The translations under genes were made by a program, and so were the position numbers. DNA of 50,690 nucleotides from Alistipes sp. (GTDB taxonomy: Bacteria; Bacillota; Clostridia; Oscillospirales; Ruminococcaceae). The DNA lies in NCBI GenBank assembly GCA_023667265.1, contig JAMPAJ010000002.1, positions 184,412 to 235,101 of the forward strand. Direction: 5' to 3'. The notes below the pieces were generated by a model, which was not told where the DNA came from, did no database searches, and worked only from the letters and a program-made list of their open reading frames with translations. How positions within the stretch are numbered: the first letter of the stretch is position 1; every line of letters begins with the position of its first letter. Below, in pieces: positions 4,672 to 44,853 of this stretch.

Positions 4672-7275
4672 ATGGAAACCGGATATAAAGAATACAAGGA
4701 TAAAGTTGATAGAGTAATTGCAAAATACCGTAATAAAAATGCGGCGACCTTTATGCGCAGCAGCGGAAGAGAAGAAAAAATCAGCTTCGGCAGGCTGGGA
4801 CGTTTTATAAGCTCGGCAGAAACGAAGCTTCGTATGTATCTCAGACCGGGTGATAGAGCGGCGCTGCTGTCGCCTCTGACGCCGTATTCGGTAATGACAG
4901 CTATTGCTCTTACATATTCCGGCATCACTGTTGTACCTATTGATATTACACTTCCTGCCGAGGAAATAAAACGGCTGATCGGCTTTTCCGATGTCCGTGC
5001 AGTTTTTATAACTGAAAAGCTCTGCGGTTTTCTCGACAGTAAAGCATTTAAGGCTGTTCAATGCTTTAGGCTCGGAAACGGACTTGGTATTGTGCCGTTT
5101 GAAAAAGCTGAGAAAATTTACTCACATGAGCCGACGTCTGACCCTGAAACAGATGTTGCCGCTATAATTTATTCGTCTGGTACCACCGGGCAGATGAAGG
5201 GTGTCAAGGTTACTTACAGATCTATAATTACAGCTCAAAAGGTCGTCCAGCGTCTTATCGGATTTAAAGCAGGTATGAAATATCTTCTTGTGCTTCCGTT
5301 CAATCATATCGCCGGTTTTACAAGTGCGATGACCTATTTTCTTACAGGCTGCGAGATCGGATATATTGAGGATGTAGACGCCTCAAAGCTGCAAAGCGGA
5401 CTGCAAAAATTCCAGCCCCATTATTTTGTTATGATACCAAAGGTCTACGAGGTCATGGAGCAGAAGATCCGCGCCGCTGTACGTGAAAAGGGAAAGCTTG
5501 TCTACGGATTTATCATGTCAATGCTCAGGCTGTCCGGCGTTTTGCGAAAGAATTTCGGTATCAATATAGGAAGAAAGGCGTTTCATGGCATAACGAAGCA
5601 GGTTTTCGGGGAAAACATAGTAGGACTCGGCACTGGCGCATCTCCCTGCAAACCGGAAACTGCCGAGTTTTTTCTGAATCTGGGAATCGTGTGGGCGAAC
5701 TTCTATGCCTCTACCGAAACCAATGTGCCCATAGCTGCAACAGGAATTTATGACCGCTATCCTGCCGATACTGTAGGAAACGTCGGCAGACATCCTGAGA
5801 TAAGAGTGAAGATCAATGCTCCGGATGCGAATGGTATCGGTGAAATAACTGTGAGATCGCAGCTTATGATGAAAGGATATTTCAGGCGTCCAGACCTGAC
5901 CAGAGCTGCATTTGAGAACGGGTATTTCAAAACAGGCGACTACGGATATATTGATAAGGCTGGATATCTTCATATTACCGGAAGGATCAAGGAGAGCATT
6001 GTTTTGCGGAACGGAAAAAAGGTCTCTCCCTCTGACGTGGACGATTATTATCTTGAACGTATTCCGGAACATGATATTGCAAGCCGCGGTATCACTGATG
6101 AAAACAATCAATATGACGAGATACATTTGTTTATTGCAGATGAGGGATTTTCAGCGGCTCAGAGAAAAGCTGTATCCGCAGCTTATCAGAAAGCGTCAAG
6201 GAGCGCGCCTTCTATGTACAAGCTTTCCAGCATCCATTTTATTCCGGAGATACAGCGCACTTCCGTTGGAAAGGTAAAAAGATTCAGCCTGAGCATAGAC
6301 GACGAGATACGCGATGATATTGTCAGGACGGATAATCCTGACTCCGGCAGCAAGACAGGCGTTTCTGAAACGGTTTACAAATGTATCCGCAGTCTGCTTG
6401 ATGCGGAAAATAAGTTTATAATTTCTGACGATATGAGACTCAAGGAGGATCTCGGCATGGAATCCCTTGATGTTTTTGATTTATGTGTATGTCTTGACGA
6501 AAAATACGGTACGGAATTAGAAGCAGCGCTTTATGAAGGGATAAGCGTAGGAGACATTATCCGGCTTACAGAGCAAGGTGCATCCGGCGTCACAACTGTA
6601 AATGACGCTTCGGCGTATCCTCTTTCCAGAACTGAAAAGGATCGCAGAGCGTTCCGGCATTTTATGAAAATTTCCCGTTTTATCTGGGATATAAGAGTCA
6701 GCGGAGGAGAGAATATCTCCAAGGACGAGACTTATATCTTCTGCCCAAATCATCAATGCCACTTTGACGGAATGTGGGTAATAGGCAGTCTTGATGAGAG
6801 AATACGGAACAACATCTGTTCTGTTGCTGCCGACTATCTCTTCGAGCAAAAAATATTCCGCAAGGGAGTAATATTCATGGGCGGTATTCCGGTTCACCGG
6901 ACGGGCAATACTGCTACCGCAATGAAGCGTGCGCAGGAGTGTATCGCAAACGAGGGATATAATTTGCTCATTCATCCCGAGGGTACGCGTACCTCCGACG
7001 GAAGGCTTGGCGAATTTAAACCTGGCGCAGCAAAGCTTGCTATTGATTCGGGAATAAAAATAATTCCCGTGTGTATAGACGGAGCGTTTAATGTATTTCC
7101 AAGACAGAGGGCGCTTCCACGCATATTTGATTTTAAGAACATGAAGAAATATCGGGTCAATATCTGCTTCGGAAAACCGATATCGCCGTCGGGCAAAACA
7201 GAACAGGAAATTACAAATGAGATAAAGCGTAAAATTATTGAAATGAGATCGGAGATCAGAAAGGAAAAGCAATGA
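4672..7275 (+). CDS. Fused AMP-dependent acyl ligase / acyl carrier / PlsC acyltransferase
   Basis: This 867-residue, three-domain protein starts at ATG 4672 (CTGGAG upstream). Residues about 1-540 are an adenylate-forming acyl ligase with the ATP loop YSSGTTGQMKG near 167 and a TGDYGYIDKAGYLHITGR hinge region near 425. Residues about 565-630 are an acyl carrier domain with the phosphopantetheine Ser in LGMESLDVFD (near 598). Residues about 660-867 are a PlsC-type acyltransferase with NHQCHFD (H-x4-D, near 693) and HPEGTR (near 770). The likely chemistry is to activate a fatty acid, load it on the built-in carrier and pass it to a lysophospholipid or glycerol phosphate. E. coli Aas combines the two catalytic activities in the opposite order and without a carrier. 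The stop overlaps the next start (ATGA), so the HAD gene is co-translated. Confidence 0.85.
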   Translation: METGYKEYKDKVDRVIAKYRNKNAATFMRSSGREEKISFGRLGRFISSAETKLRMYLRPGDRAALLSPLTPYSVMTAIALTYSGITVVPIDITLPAEEIKRLIGFSDVRAVFITEKLCGFLDSKAFKAVQCFRLGNGLGIVPFEKAEKIYSHEPTSDPETDVAAIIYSSGTTGQMKGVKVTYRSIITAQKVVQRLIGFKAGMKYLLVLPFNHIAGFTSAMTYFLTGCEIGYIEDVDASKLQSGLQKFQPHYFVMIPKVYEVMEQKIRAAVREKGKLVYGFIMSMLRLSGVLRKNFGINIGRKAFHGITKQVFGENIVGLGTGASPCKPETAEFFLNLGIVWANFYASTETNVPIAATGIYDRYPADTVGNVGRHPEIRVKINAPDANGIGEITVRSQLMMKGYFRRPDLTRAAFENGYFKTGDYGYIDKAGYLHITGRIKESIVLRNGKKVSPSDVDDYYLERIPEHDIASRGITDENNQYDEIHLFIADEGFSAAQRKAVSAAYQKASRSAPSMYKLSSIHFIPEIQRTSVGKVKRFSLSIDDEIRDDIVRTDNPDSGSKTGVSETVYKCIRSLLDAENKFIISDDMRLKEDLGMESLDVFDLCVCLDEKYGTELEAALYEGISVGDIIRLTEQGASGVTTVNDASAYPLSRTEKDRRAFRHFMKISRFIWDIRVSGGENISKDETYIFCPNHQCHFDGMWVIGSLDERIRNNICSVAADYLFEQKIFRKGVIFMGGIPVHRTGNTATAMKRAQECIANEGYNLLIHPEGTRTSDGRLGEFKPGAAKLAIDSGIKIIPVCIDGAFNVFPRQRALPRIFDFKNMKKYRVNICFGKPISPSGKTEQEITNEIKRKIIEMRSEIRKEKQ

Positions 7276-8005: not shown

Positions 8006-8127
8006 AATTATAAGGATAGTTGTATGCTGTTTATCAACTTTCCTTTTATGGTAAGAAGGGATAGACATTTTCATTAACAAATAAGATATTGAAAAAACAT
8101 AAGTTTGATAATATTTTAGGAGGTAAT

Positions 8128-9267
8128 ATGAAAAAATTAAGTCAATTTTTAGCCCTTTCTCTGATCGTTTTCCCCTTGGCAAACGCGACGGTCTCAGCTG
8201 CGTATGATTACAACTGCTATTATTCAGACTATCTTGATGAAACAACATACTCCACCCACAAGGAATCCAAAACAGGCACGCTTTCAAATGCAGACAGCTT
8301 CCTGGATGGCTGCGATGTTTACACAGTCGAAACTGTAGAGGCATATGACTCTTTGCCGATTTTAGAGACGAAGTACGACTACGTTTTAGCGCCCAGCGAC
8401 GTTATCGGAAGCTGGTTTGAGTATCGCTCGGAGTTTGATGATTGTTTCAGCCGCAGCTATGATGTGAAGCTGCCGCTTCATACGGGATATGTTCTCAACG
8501 AAGAGACCTTTGAGCTTGAAGACGGCGTTTTCTACGACATTGACGTTATGTGGAAAACTGTTCCGTATATCAGCATTACGGCTGACACAAAGTCTGCGCC
8601 GCTGTTTGATAATGCACAGCTCAGACAGCTGTTCCCTGATATTAACATCGTAAGTATGGGTACGGATGATGACGGGAACTATATCTCGTATATGTTTGCA
8701 GGCGGCATATACACGGACATAGGCGACTATGAGAGCGATGCTGATACGGTGATCTCTCTTGAGGACGCGAAAAAAATTGCCGGGCTGCGGAACGAGCACG
8801 TCCTTGATATGAGCTACTGCACTTCCTATGAAACACAGCGCATCTCATTGTGCGAGTATCCGACCTACACTGCGGACACTGTAGAATACGCGGCGTCTGT
8901 TTTTGAGGCTTACGGATATGATGTTACAATAGAAAATGGCTGCCAGATCGTTCCTGCCGGACACGTGCCTGCTCTTGAATATTTCGAGATCATTTCTGAA
9001 ATTCAGATGAAGAAAGACGCTATGCCAAATATGCTGATGTATGAACCTGTCAGCTCAGGTCTGGTCAATTCCGTCGGTTTATTGAGCGCACCCCAAGGTG
9101 ATATAAACGGAGACGGAGAGATCGGAATAGCCGATATGGTATTATTGCAAAAATATCTTCTCGGCGGAAAAAGCATCAGTTTATCTGCCGACTTGAATGA
9201 GGACGGTTCAATTGACAGCTATGACATGATATTAATGAGAAAAATGATCGTGAACAAGCTCGGATAA
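8128..9267 (+). CDS. Secreted dockerin protein of unknown catalytic function
   Basis: This 379-residue protein starts at ATG 8128 behind AGGAGG. Residues 1-27 are a Sec signal peptide ending ANATVSA. The middle, about 300 residues rich in Asp, Tyr and Ser, matches no family I recognise. The last 60 residues are a type I dockerin with two calcium-binding F-hand repeats: GDINGDGEIGIADMVLLQKYL and ADLNEDGSIDSYDMILMRKMI. The protein should dock to a cohesin-bearing scaffoldin on the cell surface, as in Ruminococcus cellulosomes. The unknown middle region could be a new carbohydrate-active, protease-related or structural module. It is a single-gene unit followed by a hairpin. Confidence 0.85.
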   Translation: MKKLSQFLALSLIVFPLANATVSAAYDYNCYYSDYLDETTYSTHKESKTGTLSNADSFLDGCDVYTVETVEAYDSLPILETKYDYVLAPSDVIGSWFEYRSEFDDCFSRSYDVKLPLHTGYVLNEETFELEDGVFYDIDVMWKTVPYISITADTKSAPLFDNAQLRQLFPDINIVSMGTDDDGNYISYMFAGGIYTDIGDYESDADTVISLEDAKKIAGLRNEHVLDMSYCTSYETQRISLCEYPTYTADTVEYAASVFEAYGYDVTIENGCQIVPAGHVPALEYFEIISEIQMKKDAMPNMLMYEPVSSGLVNSVGLLSAPQGDINGDGEIGIADMVLLQKYLLGGKSISLSADLNEDGSIDSYDMILMRKMIVNKLG

Positions 9268-40718: not shown

Positions 40719-40747
40719 TTGACGTTGGGAAAGAAATATTATATAAT
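40719..40747 (+). promoter_or_regulatory. rpe promoter
   Basis: TTGACG (40719-40724), 17 bp, TATAAT (40742-40747), 33 bp before the rpe start. Probably drives rpe and the Rnf-like genes. Confidence 0.72.
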
Positions 40748-40780: not shown

Positions 40781-41428
40781 ATGAAAAATTATGTATCGGC
40801 ATCAATTCTCAGCGCGGATATGCTTAATCTCGAAAGAGAAATAAGAAGGCTCGAGGAATCAGGAGTGGATATGCTCCACTTCGACGTTATGGACGGAGTA
40901 TTTGTTAATAATATTACCTACGGACTCCCTGTGCTCCAGCAGGTACGCAAGGCGACCGGCATGACCCTTGACGTGCATCTTATGATAACAGATCCGCTGA
41001 AATACGTAAAGAATTTTGCTGATTTCGGCGCTGACATCATTACTTTTCACACTGAGAGCGAAAGCGACCCGATGGAAACTGTAAAGGCTGTCAAAGCATG
41101 CGGAGTAAAGGCTGCCGCCGCTGTAAAGCCTGGCACGCCCGCCGAGGCAGTCTATGATCTGCTTCCGGAGCTCGATATGGTTCTCGTCATGACGGTAGAA
41201 CCGGGATTTGGCGGACAGAGCTTCATCGAAAGCACGGTGGAAAAGATATCTGCTGTCCGCAGCCGTATCGACAGCCTCGGACTTGGCTGCGACATCCAGG
41301 TGGACGGAGGTATCAACTACGAGACCGCTCCTGTTGTACGCAACGCCGGGGCAAATGTTCTCGTATCGGGAAGCTGTCTGTTCAGGGCGGACGATCTCGC
41401 GGCGGCTGTAAGGAGAATAAAGGGATAA
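40781..41428 (+). CDS. rpe: Ribulose-phosphate 3-epimerase
   Basis: This 215-residue TIM-barrel enzyme interconverts ribulose 5-phosphate and xylulose 5-phosphate. Signatures: SASILSADMLNLE, HFDVMDGVFVNNITYG, LDVHLMI, MTVEPGFGGQSFI and IQVDGGIN with the catalytic Asp pair and metal His residues. The ribosome site AGGAAGTGA precedes ATG 40781. The Rnf-like gene starts 1 bp after its stop, so rpe appears to head the same transcript. Confidence 0.95.
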   Translation: MKNYVSASILSADMLNLEREIRRLEESGVDMLHFDVMDGVFVNNITYGLPVLQQVRKATGMTLDVHLMITDPLKYVKNFADFGADIITFHTESESDPMETVKAVKACGVKAAAAVKPGTPAEAVYDLLPELDMVLVMTVEPGFGGQSFIESTVEKISAVRSRIDSLGLGCDIQVDGGINYETAPVVRNAGANVLVSGSCLFRADDLAAAVRRIKG

Positions 41429-41429
41429 G

Positions 41430-42425
41430 ATGCGGAGAAAAATAAGATCACAGCGTTTTATCTGCCTTGACATACTTCTTACGCTTCTTACGCTGTCTCT
41501 CATGGAATACTTTTACTATGGACTGCGGGCAGTTGTATTAAACTGCGTATGCGTCGCTGCGTCGGTTATTGCCGAGCTTATTTCGCTTCGACTCATGAAG
41601 AGAAAGTTTACAGCTGACGACCTGACCTGCGTTACGGACGCGCTTATTTTCGCACTGATGCTTCCGGCTGTTTTCGATATGAAAATGGCAGCCATAGCCT
41701 GCGTATTTGCGGTAACGGCGGCAAAGAATCTCTTCGGAGGACGAAAAAATATGATGTTTTCTCCGGCTGCTGCGGCTTACGTTTTTGTTCTTGCCTCCTG
41801 GAAGAACAGCGTACTGATGTTCACAGAACCCCATGTCCGCACCGGAATATTCGATAAGGCCGAAAATCTTGTCAGCTCGGTAAGTCACAGCTTTAACGTT
41901 ACCGGACGAATGAGCGTATCAGATTTTGAGCTGCTCATGGGAAATGTCCCCGGATCTGCCGGATCTGTCAGCATACTGCTCCTGACGGTTGCCGCGGCAG
42001 TTCTGATTTTCCGCCGCGATATATCCGCTGGAGCATTTATCGGCACGATAACTGGAACTGCTCTTCTTGCCTGCTTTGTGCCAATGGCAAGCAGCATAGG
42101 AATGTCCGTGAAATACACTCTTTCCACGAATATGGTGCTGTTCGCGGCAATTTATATTGTCTCCGACAGGCGTATCGCTCCCAAAAGGAATTACTACGCC
42201 TTCTTCTATGGATTATTTGTGGCTGTTTTCTCCTACATCCTCGTACTCACCACAGCAAAGGAAAATGCTGTGATAATTGCTTCGGTAATTTTCACTCCCG
42301 CTGCTCTTGGACTGCGCAATCTGGAAAACAAGATCGAAAAAATCAGGGAGGAAGAAATTTCTTCAGCAGAGAAAACGGCTGAGATTCCGGCAGAAACGTC
42401 AGAGGAGGCGATCGCCGATGAGTAA
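41430..42425 (+). CDS. RnfD/NqrB-like membrane subunit lacking the flavin motif
   Basis: This 331-residue protein has about nine hydrophobic segments and a charged Glu/Ala tail. FSPAAAAYVFVLASW matches the FNPA region of RnfD/NqrB, and GSAGSVSILLLTVAAAVLIFRRDIS matches the GSIGE-type helix that follows the flavin site in true RnfD. The SGAT-type motif whose Thr binds FMN is not found; the corresponding stretch reads VSSVSHSFNVTG. Length is close to RnfD (about 320-350). It overlaps the next gene by 8 bp. In true Rnf this subunit carries FMN and part of the Na+ or H+ path; without FMN it cannot be assumed to carry electrons. Confidence 0.72.
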   Translation: MRRKIRSQRFICLDILLTLLTLSLMEYFYYGLRAVVLNCVCVAASVIAELISLRLMKRKFTADDLTCVTDALIFALMLPAVFDMKMAAIACVFAVTAAKNLFGGRKNMMFSPAAAAYVFVLASWKNSVLMFTEPHVRTGIFDKAENLVSSVSHSFNVTGRMSVSDFELLMGNVPGSAGSVSILLLTVAAAVLIFRRDISAGAFIGTITGTALLACFVPMASSIGMSVKYTLSTNMVLFAAIYIVSDRRIAPKRNYYAFFYGLFVAVFSYILVLTTAKENAVIIASVIFTPAALGLRNLENKIEKIREEEISSAEKTAEIPAETSEEAIADE

Positions 42426-43053
42426 AAGGATCTCTGTTTTCGACGGACTTCTGAGAGATAATACCGTTCTGTCATCTCTTATGGTAATATCGCCGATCAT
42501 AGTCTGCGGCGATACTGTAATGAACGGAATAGCCCTGATCTACGCCTTTTCCGTCATTACATTCCTGTCGGTTCTCATCGGCTCGTTTGTACCGAAGAGA
42601 CTGCCATATGCAGTGAAGATCATAATCTATGCTCTGATCTCTTCAGCCGTATTCATTCCCACGAAAATGGCTGCGGAGGAGTTCTTTCCGGATGTAATAC
42701 CGAGAATAGGAAATTATTTCATGCTGGTGGCTGTCAATTCCATTATTACCGTCAGGTCGGAGGCTTTCTTCTATCGCATGAAACGCGGCAGAATGATGCT
42801 CTCCCTGTTATTCTATATCCTGGGATTTGACGCGGTCATGCTGGTTATCTCACTTATCCGTGAGATAATGGCATACGGAACAGTCTGCGGAAGAGTTATG
42901 GACGCTGATATTCTCATCAGCGGCATGGGTATGCCTTTCGGCGGATTTATCCTTCTGGGCATAATGTGCGGAATTTATCGGAAGCTCCGGTCTGTATTCA
43001 GCCGTGAGGACGTTAAGAGCGACGGAGGTGACGAGAATGTTTCTGATAGCTGA
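42418..43053 (+). CDS. RnfE/NqrD-like membrane subunit with Cys ligands replaced
   Basis: This 211-residue six-helix protein aligns with RnfE: LLRDNTVLSSLMVISPIIVCGDT matches L-x-NN-x-LVQLLGLCPLLAVT, and VAVNSIITVRSEAFF matches VTNCIVVGRAEAFA. In Rnf/Nqr the Cys in LGLCP and the Cys in TNC hold an intramembrane 2Fe-2S centre between the A and E subunits. Both are Ser here (ISP and VNS). ATG 42418 lies behind GAGGAGG and overlaps the end of the D-like gene; its 3' end overlaps the A-like gene by 17 bp. The fold seems kept while the redox site is gone. Confidence 0.78.
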   Translation: MSKRISVFDGLLRDNTVLSSLMVISPIIVCGDTVMNGIALIYAFSVITFLSVLIGSFVPKRLPYAVKIIIYALISSAVFIPTKMAAEEFFPDVIPRIGNYFMLVAVNSIITVRSEAFFYRMKRGRMMLSLLFYILGFDAVMLVISLIREIMAYGTVCGRVMDADILISGMGMPFGGFILLGIMCGIYRKLRSVFSREDVKSDGGDENVSDS

Positions 43054-43609
43054 GCTTGTAGTGCTTCTTGCAACAAACCTCATCCTGAGTCAGGCGCTGG
43101 GAACCAGTACTCTTTTCATTGCAGCCGGAAGCCGGAAAAATCTTCTCTGGATAGCAATAACAATAACTGTATTCACAACAGTTGGTTCGGCAGCGGCGTA
43201 TTTTATCGAGCTGCTTCTGCCCGACCAATACAATGATTTCCGGCTTCTTCTCTACACGTCAGCAGTCGGTATCCTATATGTACTTTTGCTGACCGTCCTG
43301 TACTTTGCTGACAGGGCAGGCTTCGGCACGACAAGAAAATATGTCCATCTTTCGGCATTCAACTGTGCTGTAATGGGAGCTCTTTTCGCTGTTTCCGACA
43401 GGCTTTCCGTTCATCCGACGCTTAATACGGCAGGCAGCTTTATGATAGCGGGCGCAGAGGCTGGAACCGGATTTATTCTTGCTGCGTTTATCCTGTCCGC
43501 CGCGTACCGCAGACTTAATTCTGCTGACGTTCCGGCTTCGTTCAGAGGATTTCCGGCAATGCTTGTTTACCTTGGCATTATTTCAATGGCTGTATACGCC
43601 TTGGTATAA
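43037..43609 (+). CDS. RnfA/NqrE-like membrane subunit with one of two Cys ligands lost
   Basis: This 190-residue six-helix protein aligns with RnfA over its length: LATNLILSQALGTSTLF matches LVNNFVLVKFLGLCPFM, HLSAFNCAVMGALFA matches PLITTNCAVLGVALL, and ADVPASFRGFPAMLVYLGIISMAVYAL matches the ADVPAPFRG C-terminus. The first Cys (LGLCP) is lost (LGTST) while the second (FNCA) remains, so a four-Cys 2Fe-2S centre with the E-like partner cannot form. ATG 43037 follows GGAGGTGA. A MITE-end remnant (AACAAGTTCT) follows its stop codon. No RnfB, C or G gene is nearby. Confidence 0.82.
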   Translation: MFLIAELVVLLATNLILSQALGTSTLFIAAGSRKNLLWIAITITVFTTVGSAAAYFIELLLPDQYNDFRLLLYTSAVGILYVLLLTVLYFADRAGFGTTRKYVHLSAFNCAVMGALFAVSDRLSVHPTLNTAGSFMIAGAEAGTGFILAAFILSAAYRRLNSADVPASFRGFPAMLVYLGIISMAVYALV

Positions 43610-43659: not shown

Positions 43660-44853
43660 ATGAAACGCAAACACAAGGGAAGGAAAATCTACAAAACCAA
43701 AGAAAAAAACTACTACGGAAAAAGTCCCTTCGGAAAATTTATGTCCGCGGTCCTGACCGTGCTCCTCATAGGCGGAATAGGCTTTATAGGCTACAGCGCC
43801 GCCGAGCCCATTATAAACTATACTCAGCATAAGGGCGACAAGGCGGAGGAAGAAACTACCGCAGCTGAAGCAGCTTCAACTGACGAAGTATCGCAGCAGG
43901 ATCCGGGAGAAGCCCGGTCGCCCGGGGCGGATACGGAGATCGTCGCTGCCGGAGCTGCGCTGAAAACATCAGATCTGCAAAGCTCTGAGACTCTGCAAGC
44001 GGCTATCAGCGCGCTGCCGAACGACATGAATATCAGCTATATCGAGATACCTCTCAAGTCCAACGACGGTTTTTTGTGGTACGCCAGCTCGGTATACGAC
44101 GCACAGGCAGCAGGAGCAGTCCGCGGAACCATGAGTCTTGACGAAATAATTTCAATAGTTGAAAATAACGGCTATAAGGCAGCTGCCGCTATAAGCGCCT
44201 TTGAGGACAGCTGTTTTCCTGCACTTTATTATGATGCAGGCTATCTTACTTATGCTGACGGGGCGCAGTGGATCGACAACGATGCGGAAGCAGGAGGAAA
44301 GCCCTGGATGTCGCCATATTCGCAGAAGGCGCTGGACTACCTTTCGGAAATAACCGAGGAGATATCCTCATCGGGATTTGATATGGTGATTTTCTCGGAG
44401 CTCGTTTTTCCGCCCTTTCGCCAGAGCGACCTGGAGCTGCTTGGCGAACGTTACGGCAAGAGCGACCGCTGTATGGCGCTGACCTCTGCGGCTAATCTGA
44501 TGTACGACAAGGCAATGTCAAACGGAGCGACCGTGCAGGTGGAGATATCGGCGGCGGACGTTCTGAGCGGCAGGGGAGACGTGCTCCAGCCAATGCTGCT
44601 TTCAGCTGCAAATGTTATTCTCCGGATAGATACGGATGAACTCGGCAGAGGGGTAAGCGACGCTACCTCGCTGTATGAGTTTACCGGAAGTCCGGGAGAT
44701 ACTGCGCTTAAATGTATAACATTGACGGCGGATAAGCTGTCGGAATTTAATGTAAGCATCCGCCTGACAGGCTCGTCGCTCACAGCCGCTCAGATTGTCG
44801 ATGCAAGGGAGAAAATTGCGGAATACAGCTATGATTCGTTTATAATTGGCTGA
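43660..44853 (+). CDS. Membrane-anchored DUF4015-like putative glycoside hydrolase
   Basis: This 397-residue protein has a basic N-terminus, one membrane helix (FMSAVLTVLLIGGIGFIGYSA, about 28-48), an acidic linker and an extracellular domain from about 95. That domain has alternating helix/strand blocks: LDEIISIVENNGYKAAAAISAFEDSCFPALYYDAGYL, WIDNDAEAGGKPWMSPYSQKALDYLSEITEEISSSGFDMVIFSELVFPPF. This is the pattern of DUF4015-type TIM-barrel putative glycoside hydrolases (GFDEI..D..RFP region). Active-site acids cannot be fixed from one sequence. It lies 50 bp after the Rnf-like trio and 23 bp before hprK. It may be a surface glycan or peptidoglycan-acting enzyme. Confidence 0.65.
   Translation: MKRKHKGRKIYKTKEKNYYGKSPFGKFMSAVLTVLLIGGIGFIGYSAAEPIINYTQHKGDKAEEETTAAEAASTDEVSQQDPGEARSPGADTEIVAAGAALKTSDLQSSETLQAAISALPNDMNISYIEIPLKSNDGFLWYASSVYDAQAAGAVRGTMSLDEIISIVENNGYKAAAAISAFEDSCFPALYYDAGYLTYADGAQWIDNDAEAGGKPWMSPYSQKALDYLSEITEEISSSGFDMVIFSELVFPPFRQSDLELLGERYGKSDRCMALTSAANLMYDKAMSNGATVQVEISAADVLSGRGDVLQPMLLSAANVILRIDTDELGRGVSDATSLYEFTGSPGDTALKCITLTADKLSEFNVSIRLTGSSLTAAQIVDAREKIAEYSYDSFIIG

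Follow-up and report, generated by a model that had tools for sequence, protein, structure and literature searches.

The window analysed here, a stretch of 50,690 nucleotides from contig JAMPAJ010000002.1 of an Alistipes sp. genome, contains three overlapping genes for homologues of the Rnf membrane subunits RnfD, RnfE and RnfA, which we refer to as D', E' and A' (Table 1). The original prediction had placed such homologues at 41430-43609, and this assignment was confirmed with Pfam, NCBIfam and a sequence search among solved structures, in which the top matches of all three proteins were Rnf and NQR subunits. The best-ranking NCBIfam models were RnfD for D', RsxE followed by RnfE for E', and RnfA for A', with bit scores all far below cut-off (rnfD 87.8 vs. 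207, rnfE 62.6 vs. 213, rnfA 37.8 vs. 229). The open reading frames of E' and A' extend further upstream (42307 and 43004); with the ATG starts adopted here, the genes overlap by 8 bases (D'/E') and 17 bases (E'/A'). No rnfB, rnfC or rnfG adjoins the trio in the window, in line with the predicted lack of soluble electron-entry subunits nearby. We consider it highly probable that the trio descends from Rnf, has lost cofactor ligands and is independent of Rnf, these three statements being taken jointly.

Table 1. Features at and around the trio locus (positions within the window)
Feature	Position	Strand	Remarks
D' (RnfD/NqrB homologue)	41430..42425	+	331 amino acids; PF03116 NQR2_RnfD_RnfE, E-value 1.2e-39
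E' (RnfE/NqrD homologue)	42418..43053	+	211 amino acids; PF02508 Rnf-Nqr, E-value 3.5e-24
A' (RnfA/NqrE homologue)	43037..43609	+	190 amino acids; PF02508 Rnf-Nqr, E-value 9.9e-15
rpe, ribulose-phosphate 3-epimerase	40781..41428	+	PF00834, E-value 7.5e-72; 1 base before D'
DUF4015 protein	43660..44853	+	PF13200, E-value 1.1e-13; hydrophobic segment near N-terminus
hprK			after DUF4015 gene
Promoter-like site TTGACG-17-TATAAT	40719..40747	+	consensus scan, 11/12 matches; upstream of rpe

Cofactor ligands of D', E' and A'

In the Rnf complex of Acetobacterium woodii, the membrane 2Fe-2S cluster has four Cys ligands, RnfA C25, RnfA C113, RnfE C25 and RnfE C108, and RnfD carries flavin mononucleotide (FMN) on T156 and holds riboflavin with N123 and D249 (PMC11889175). 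On alignment, both cluster positions of E' are serine (Cys25 to Ser25, Cys108 to Ser108), and A' has Ser24 in place of Cys25 and retains Cys113 as Cys110, leaving the window trio with one of the four cysteines. S25 and S108 of E' and S24 and C110 of A' are invariant in 23 of 23 sequences, those of the window and of 22 among the 28 close relatives. Read directly, the D' protein has no [ST]GAT motif anywhere; the TGAT of the canonical RnfD of the same genome aligns with SSVS of D', within a gappy stretch whose exact placement differs between alignments. At the riboflavin site, window D' retains the Asp (D246, invariant in 22/22 aligned D' including the window) and has S111 for the Asn, and its N-terminal RnfC-docking arm is missing. 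In A' of the window, H104, F108 and L85 stand in place of the canonical P, T and E.

Wider alignments were counted after dropping the duplicates L034, L041, L043, L049 and L058. All ligands are present in 11 of 11 canonical rows. Among all paralogue rows, Cys occupies the two E' sites in 2/84 (L087 and L088) and 0/84, and the two A' sites in 0/81 and 58/81; the FMN column of D' holds Thr in 3 of 82 rows, never in a G-A-T context. The original prediction, according to which the FMN-binding motif is missing in D', both cluster cysteines are Ser in E' and one of two is lost in A', is thus correct. A candidate for a ligand at a shifted position is E' C30, five residues past S25; as it is invariant in the 23 close sequences but not conserved family-wide, a moved ligand is not supported.

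Relatives of the trio and canonical Rnf

A protein search of GTDB species genomes, a method that finds close relatives only, yielded 28 loci, of which 26 are titled Ruminococcus, one Oscillospiraceae and one Clostridia. The order rpe-D'-E'-A' is kept in all 28, and murB lies near the trio in the window and most of them. The DUF4015 gene adjoins A' in 27 at a distance of at most 67 bases, the contig ending there in the 28th, and is thereby the steady neighbour for which a survey had been suggested. The ratio of nonsynonymous to synonymous substitution rates (dN/dS) relative to the near relative L006 is 0.073 for D', 0.116 for E' and 0.076 for A' by NG86, and 0.142 for E' and 0.107 for A' by YN00. 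This comparison is the only sound one, more distant pairs being saturated (up to 0.22, A' vs. L015, YN00). By these sequence-derived values, selection on the trio is purifying.

The distribution beyond the close relatives was followed in 20 regions of the window's own family, selected for spread instead of randomly, and in 20 further regions picked near the top of order-level and class-level lists. The family loci have rpe in view in 17 of 20 cases and DUF4015 in 14; E' occurs without D' and A' at L066 (E' 6039-6653) and L079 (E' 6021-6632), and without A' at L076. The second set comprised ten paralogue loci, from two other families of the same order (nine f22, one f21), and ten canonical rnf loci; all three regions opened outside the order, where wider taxa were hardly sampled, were canonical. 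A broad profile, A4, matched 212/247 and 212/293 genomes in wider taxa, but canonical RnfE reaches about 150 bits with it, so that its score cannot separate paralogue from canonical copies. Of the 148 family genomes, tallied by hand, 13 have no PF02508 match, 4 have one, 27 have two (23 strong and 4 weak pairs) and 104 have at least three. The E' profile A1 matches 115 of the 148 at 1e-6, canonical rnfE included, and by hand comparison about 106, among the matches listed, have one away from canonical rnfE. Counted by hand, roughly 105 of the 148 carry the paralogue. Most family genomes carrying the paralogue also have a strong canonical pair.

The RnfC loss described in the original prediction applies to the window, but not to the group as a whole. 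In what we call the 'INTERMEDIATE form', an RnfC-like gene, C', precedes D' and adjoins rpe wherever rpe is in view; seven family loci (out of 20) and five order-level paralogue loci (out of 10) carry it, 12/30 altogether. Both 4Fe-4S motifs are kept in 7/7 aligned C' (of the 12 found). The loop for FMN and reduced nicotinamide adenine dinucleotide (NADH), GLGGAGFPT in the RnfC of the window's own genome, is changed to ERDG in five of these seven and to ESDG or ETDG in the other two. None of three C' scanned matches RnfC_N or reaches the cut-off of Complex1_51K (best 30.5 vs. 31.2 bits), and the own canonical RnfC matches both. No RnfB- or RnfG-like match was obtained in the 30 paralogue loci with single-sequence profiles at 25 bits; the RnfG profile missed one of ten canonical loci (L101), so that a diverged RnfG could escape detection. 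Further RnfC-like genes of 180-230 bits, distinct from both canonical RnfC and C', occur in G076, G118, G051 and G098; we presume that they are perhaps PduS-like.

Loss of C' is accompanied by changes in D'. In Clostridium tetanomorphum the N-terminal arm of RnfD is buried in RnfC, and riboflavin hands electrons to an RnfC cluster at 11.7 Å (PMC9588780). The proline-His/aromatic motif of this arm before the first helix is present in 11/11 canonical RnfD, in 10 of the 12 D' encoded with C' and in 1 of 70 C'-less D' (L075, where it looks like chance); the riboflavin Asn is found in 11/11, 12/12 and 25/70, respectively. RnfC, docking arm and, less strictly, riboflavin Asn therefore go together. 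Rows counted as C'-less here are labelled as family 1 and also include the C'-less rows of f21 and f22; they are far from independent, as the window together with its 28 close relatives makes up 29 of them. Since the C'-bearing rows form one group in the D tree (Shimodaira-Hasegawa-like approximate likelihood ratio test support 83; C'-less group 53), the coupled loss counts few events.

All trees were 'quick' trees, leaving out 19 (D) or 23 (E and A) of the 28 close relatives. The D tree separates 63 D' from 11 canonical RnfD, and in the joint E and A tree the canonical groups are supported with 86 (E) and 38 (A). The D' of L075 was filed as such because of E', A' and rpe at its locus and its grouping with L072, although the profile of the canonical RnfD from the window's genome scores best with it (134 bits). 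The label C' changes once in the D tree, four times in the E tree and two to three times in the A tree, on long branches; we make no claim on one versus several losses of C'.

In the genome from which the window stems (2.57 Mb, completeness 96%), PF02508 is matched four times: within the trio, at 86 and 54.5 bits, and by two genes on a second contig, at 217 and 196 bits. As the check proposed with the original prediction, a separate rnf cluster was sought, and the second-contig locus reads as a full rnfCDGEAB set in which the Cys and TGAT motifs are intact; its C, D and B also match family models, and its G was named by SGAT and position alone. BLASTP identity to these canonical copies is 28% for D', 25% for E' and 24% for A'.

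For INDEPENDENCE from Rnf speak six genomes with paralogue genes in which no canonical RnfC, RnfD or RnfE/A was found. No RnfB above cut-off was found in them either, with a model that is a weak witness, as it passed its cut-off in only two of 11 genomes (G000 and G016) and missed G018 despite canonical RnfC and RnfD. G087 (94% complete) has C', D' and E' with a second weak Rnf-Nqr match, G065 (88%) and G035 (89%) have D', E' and A', and G055, G136 and G072 (0.7-0.9 Mb, 94-97% complete) have D' and one Rnf-Nqr match each. Given their completeness of 88-89%, the absence of Rnf is weaker in G035 and G065 than in the other four (94-97%). Riboflavin Asn and Asp are both present in D' of G055, G136, G072 and G087, and the Asn is His in G065 and G035. 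Two further candidates were not counted as Rnf-free: G018 was dropped for its canonical RnfC and RnfD on one contig, RnfD lying at the contig end, and G145 was left out for its RnfC of 497 bits, no canonical D or E/A having been found there.

Possible roles of the trio

We tentatively favour the reading that the trio is an ancient Rnf paralogue that has lost the transmembrane electron wire, and in the window's lineage also RnfC, and now forms a redox-silent membrane complex, perhaps for the passage of solutes or cations. D', E' and A' would still assemble as an RnfA/E/D-like membrane complex. With no membrane cluster, no RnfG and no FMN on D, Rnf-type electron crossing would not be expected from established Rnf chemistry, and no electron should cross the membrane through the trio. 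As what remains under selection is a pair of the alternating-access type and a channel-like fold, passage of a small solute or cation is favoured, by the alternating-access-like A'/E' pair and/or by D', which resembles Amt and urea transporters. Its putative binding site would be the rebuilt pocket formed by Ser24, Cys110 and the nearby His104 of A' and Ser25 and Ser108 of E', and the DUF4015 protein may be a partner on the outside. The wider scenario, in which an Rnf-type redox pump became a non-redox membrane transporter or channel at an early stage within one clostridial order, with graded cofactor loss in living species, is possible but more doubtful. The grades would be the full Rnf complex; C'D'E'A', whose Fe-S and riboflavin sites are on the cytoplasmic side only; and D'E'A' without a certain cofactor. 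The copy probably arose before the families of the order diverged, or else may have passed between families.

Residues along the proposed ion path give a mixed picture. Mutation of R67 or E115 of RnfE impairs growth of A. woodii (PMC11889175). The R67 equivalent is R or K in 71/72 C'-less and 9/12 C'-bearing E' (K67 in the window), and the E115 equivalent is kept in the window, in 60/72 C'-less and in 3/12 C'-bearing E'. RnfA T110 is replaced by Ala in 55 of 70 and T111 by Phe in 58 of 70 C'-less A', the window having Ala/Phe. Of the claim that a Na+/H+-coupled scaffold was kept, the fold and the RnfE R67(K)/E115 pair thus stand; the positions of RnfA T110/T111, NqrE E95 and NqrD D133 do not. 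Among C'-less rows of the own family, counted after thinning of close relatives, new residues are conserved in A' (S24 35/41, Y81 37/41, H104 36/41, F108 36/41) and in E' (S108 36/43), and on these counts we read the former cluster pocket as rebuilt, not merely emptied.

Several observations weigh against a transporting trio. In NQR, E95 of NqrE is the partner of R71 in NqrD, and mutating this Glu abolishes Na+ pumping (PMC10643135); the E95 equivalent, placed by counting along the alignment to the solved structure, is Leu in the window and in 61/70 C'-less A'. The NqrD D133 equivalent is Ser in the window and in 30/72 C'-less E', and Asp in 25/72. The first E' site is Ser (33/72) and Ala (33/72) about equally in C'-less rows, so that the pocket has not stayed polar throughout. 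The riboflavin Asp occurs in 11/11 canonical RnfD, 11/12 C'-bearing and still 54/70 C'-less D', and a flavin may therefore still bind. No A' was found in the three small genomes G055, G136 and G072, and D' is on a separate contig from E' in both G055 and G136, which fits an obligate trio poorly. G113, of the window's own genus, has neither a canonical nor a paralogue copy, so that the trio is not indispensable. The structure models are of middling confidence (predicted local distance difference test, pLDDT, 67).

The main rival, which we consider unlikely and which suits the C'-bearing relatives best, is a trio still redox-active by a shortened route, with electrons exchanged between the 4Fe-4S clusters of C' and the riboflavin of D' on the cytoplasmic side, and in the window form with a flavin and another soluble partner or an unusual Ser/Cys cluster. 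The 4Fe-4S motifs in 7/7 aligned C', the riboflavin N123 and D249 equivalents in 12/12 and 11/12 C'-bearing D', the 11.7 Å step in C. tetanomorphum (PMC9588780), the invariant D246 (22/22) and the two riboflavin ligands in D' of the three 0.7-0.9 Mb genomes all speak for such a route. On the other hand, no acceptor is visible: the FMN/NADH loop is changed in the seven C' aligned, and the three C' scanned stay below the Complex1_51K cut-off, one of them barely. The window lacks C', docking arm and riboflavin Asn; with Ala in place of this Asn, growth and activity were abolished for A. woodii Rnf (PMC11889175). Quite improbable to us is a third proposal, in which the main task of D'E'A' is to give the DUF4015 protein a platform in the membrane for work on the cell envelope, with no transport: DUF4015 adjoins A' in 27/28 close relatives and occurs in 14/20 wider family loci, DUF4015-like genes stand behind canonical rnf in 4 of the 10 such loci opened, and murB is nearby, but L070, L076, L078 and L082 have the trio or part of it and no DUF4015, and the window copy matches only part of the profile.

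Very unlikely, too, are alternative or regulatory subunits that exchange with those of the cell's canonical Rnf, or helpers in its assembly, although the complete rnfCDGEAB of the genome could supply C, G and B and most paralogue-carrying family genomes have a strong canonical pair. A mixed complex without 2Fe-2S ligands should not conduct electrons, and a chimera is further weakened by the lack, in window D', of the arm by which RnfD anchors RnfC (PMC9588780) and by the six genomes, four of them 94-97% complete, with paralogue genes and no canonical RnfC, RnfD or RnfE/A. Because of these genomes, the assembly factor for Rnf suggested in the original prediction is unlikely; of that reading, a conserved membrane module without electron-transfer ligands is supported, the kept scaffold only in part, and the loss of RnfC for the window but not for the whole group. 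Functionless decay of a duplicate would account for the loss of ligands, C' and riboflavin Asn to varying degrees and for scattered or missing parts in reduced genomes, yet it is extremely improbable and, judged from sequence comparison, already contradicted by a dN/dS of about 0.1, the invariant new residues, synteny in 28/28 and retention in most family genomes.

Known systems and neighbouring features

With Rnf the trio shares sequence, length and gene order, the predicted fold of D' and A' and, in some relatives, an RnfC-like gene. It differs in the 2Fe-2S cysteines, of which E' has none and A' one of two, and in that D' lacks the FMN Thr motif, RnfB and RnfG are absent from the neighbourhood, the FMN/NADH loop of C' is changed, and the docking arm is missing where C' is gone. 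Na+-NQR is likewise thought to go back to a duplicated rnf operon from which rnfB was lost and which acquired another role (PMC4014512); it retains the membrane 2Fe-2S cluster and flavins and gained NqrF (PMC12174285), whereas the paralogue described here dropped most redox ligands, cluster Cys and FMN Thr motif being absent. No new electron-entry gene was seen beside the paralogue, although no dedicated search for NqrF was made. NQR/RNF-like flavinylated systems, in which an NqrB/RnfD domain is fused to an NqrF-like NAD domain within flavinylation gene clusters (PMC8238504), also place Rnf-derived membrane proteins outside a full Rnf, but D' has neither an NAD domain nor the FMN Thr motif. 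Identity of D' to Amt/Rh channels and urea transporters is 7-14%, compared to 22-25% for RnfD/NqrB rows, and Pfam assigns D' to NQR2_RnfD_RnfE alone; the likeness is one of fold, not of membership.

A similar gene set is on record for Faecalibacterium, which we take to belong to the same order as the window's genome. F. duncaniae A2-165 has two putative rnf operons, rnfDEA (CG447_09840-830) and rnfCDGEAB, both credited with NADH:ferredoxin oxidoreductase activity (PMC10781979). The same three genes stand there in the same order beside a separate rnfCDGEAB and, likened from gene names, not from sequence, are very probably the same thing as the window trio. In the literature searched, which leaves most subscription papers outside, 'rnfDEA' was found in this one paper only and ligand loss in an Rnf paralogue was not found described. 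Homology names the trio rnfD, rnfE and rnfA, and such an operon has been counted as energy-conserving in Faecalibacterium (PMC10781979); if the ligand loss means what it suggests, no conclusion on Rnf activity can be drawn from the presence of rnfDEA. The passage of Na+ is disputed, being placed either in RnfD/NqrB or between RnfA and RnfE (PMC12174285, PMC11889175). The graded losses amount to a natural experiment on the scaffold and wire parts of Rnf, and both questions are testable with natural variants.

The promoter-like site upstream of rpe (Table 1) is one of 13 such sites in the whole stretch, compared to 6.7 expected; from its position, it is a plausible start of an rpe-D'-E'-A' transcript. 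The DUF4015 protein of the window, the only DUF4015 match in its genome, covers 178 of 313 profile positions at 51 bits; copies in the C'-bearing genomes G098 and G003 match the whole profile at 160-170 bits. In the alignment of DUF4015 proteins, the acidic position preceding the conserved FP varies, which is no more than a hint against an enzymatic role. DUF4015-like genes of 35-77 bits also follow canonical rnf at L098, L099, L100 and L102, a hint that DUF4015 and Rnf have long been connected. Elsewhere in the window, a serine recombinase with Resolvase and Recombinase domains is encoded near the left end (684-2270), and a dockerin-bearing protein at 8089-9264, which presumably fits a cellulosome-forming Ruminococcus.

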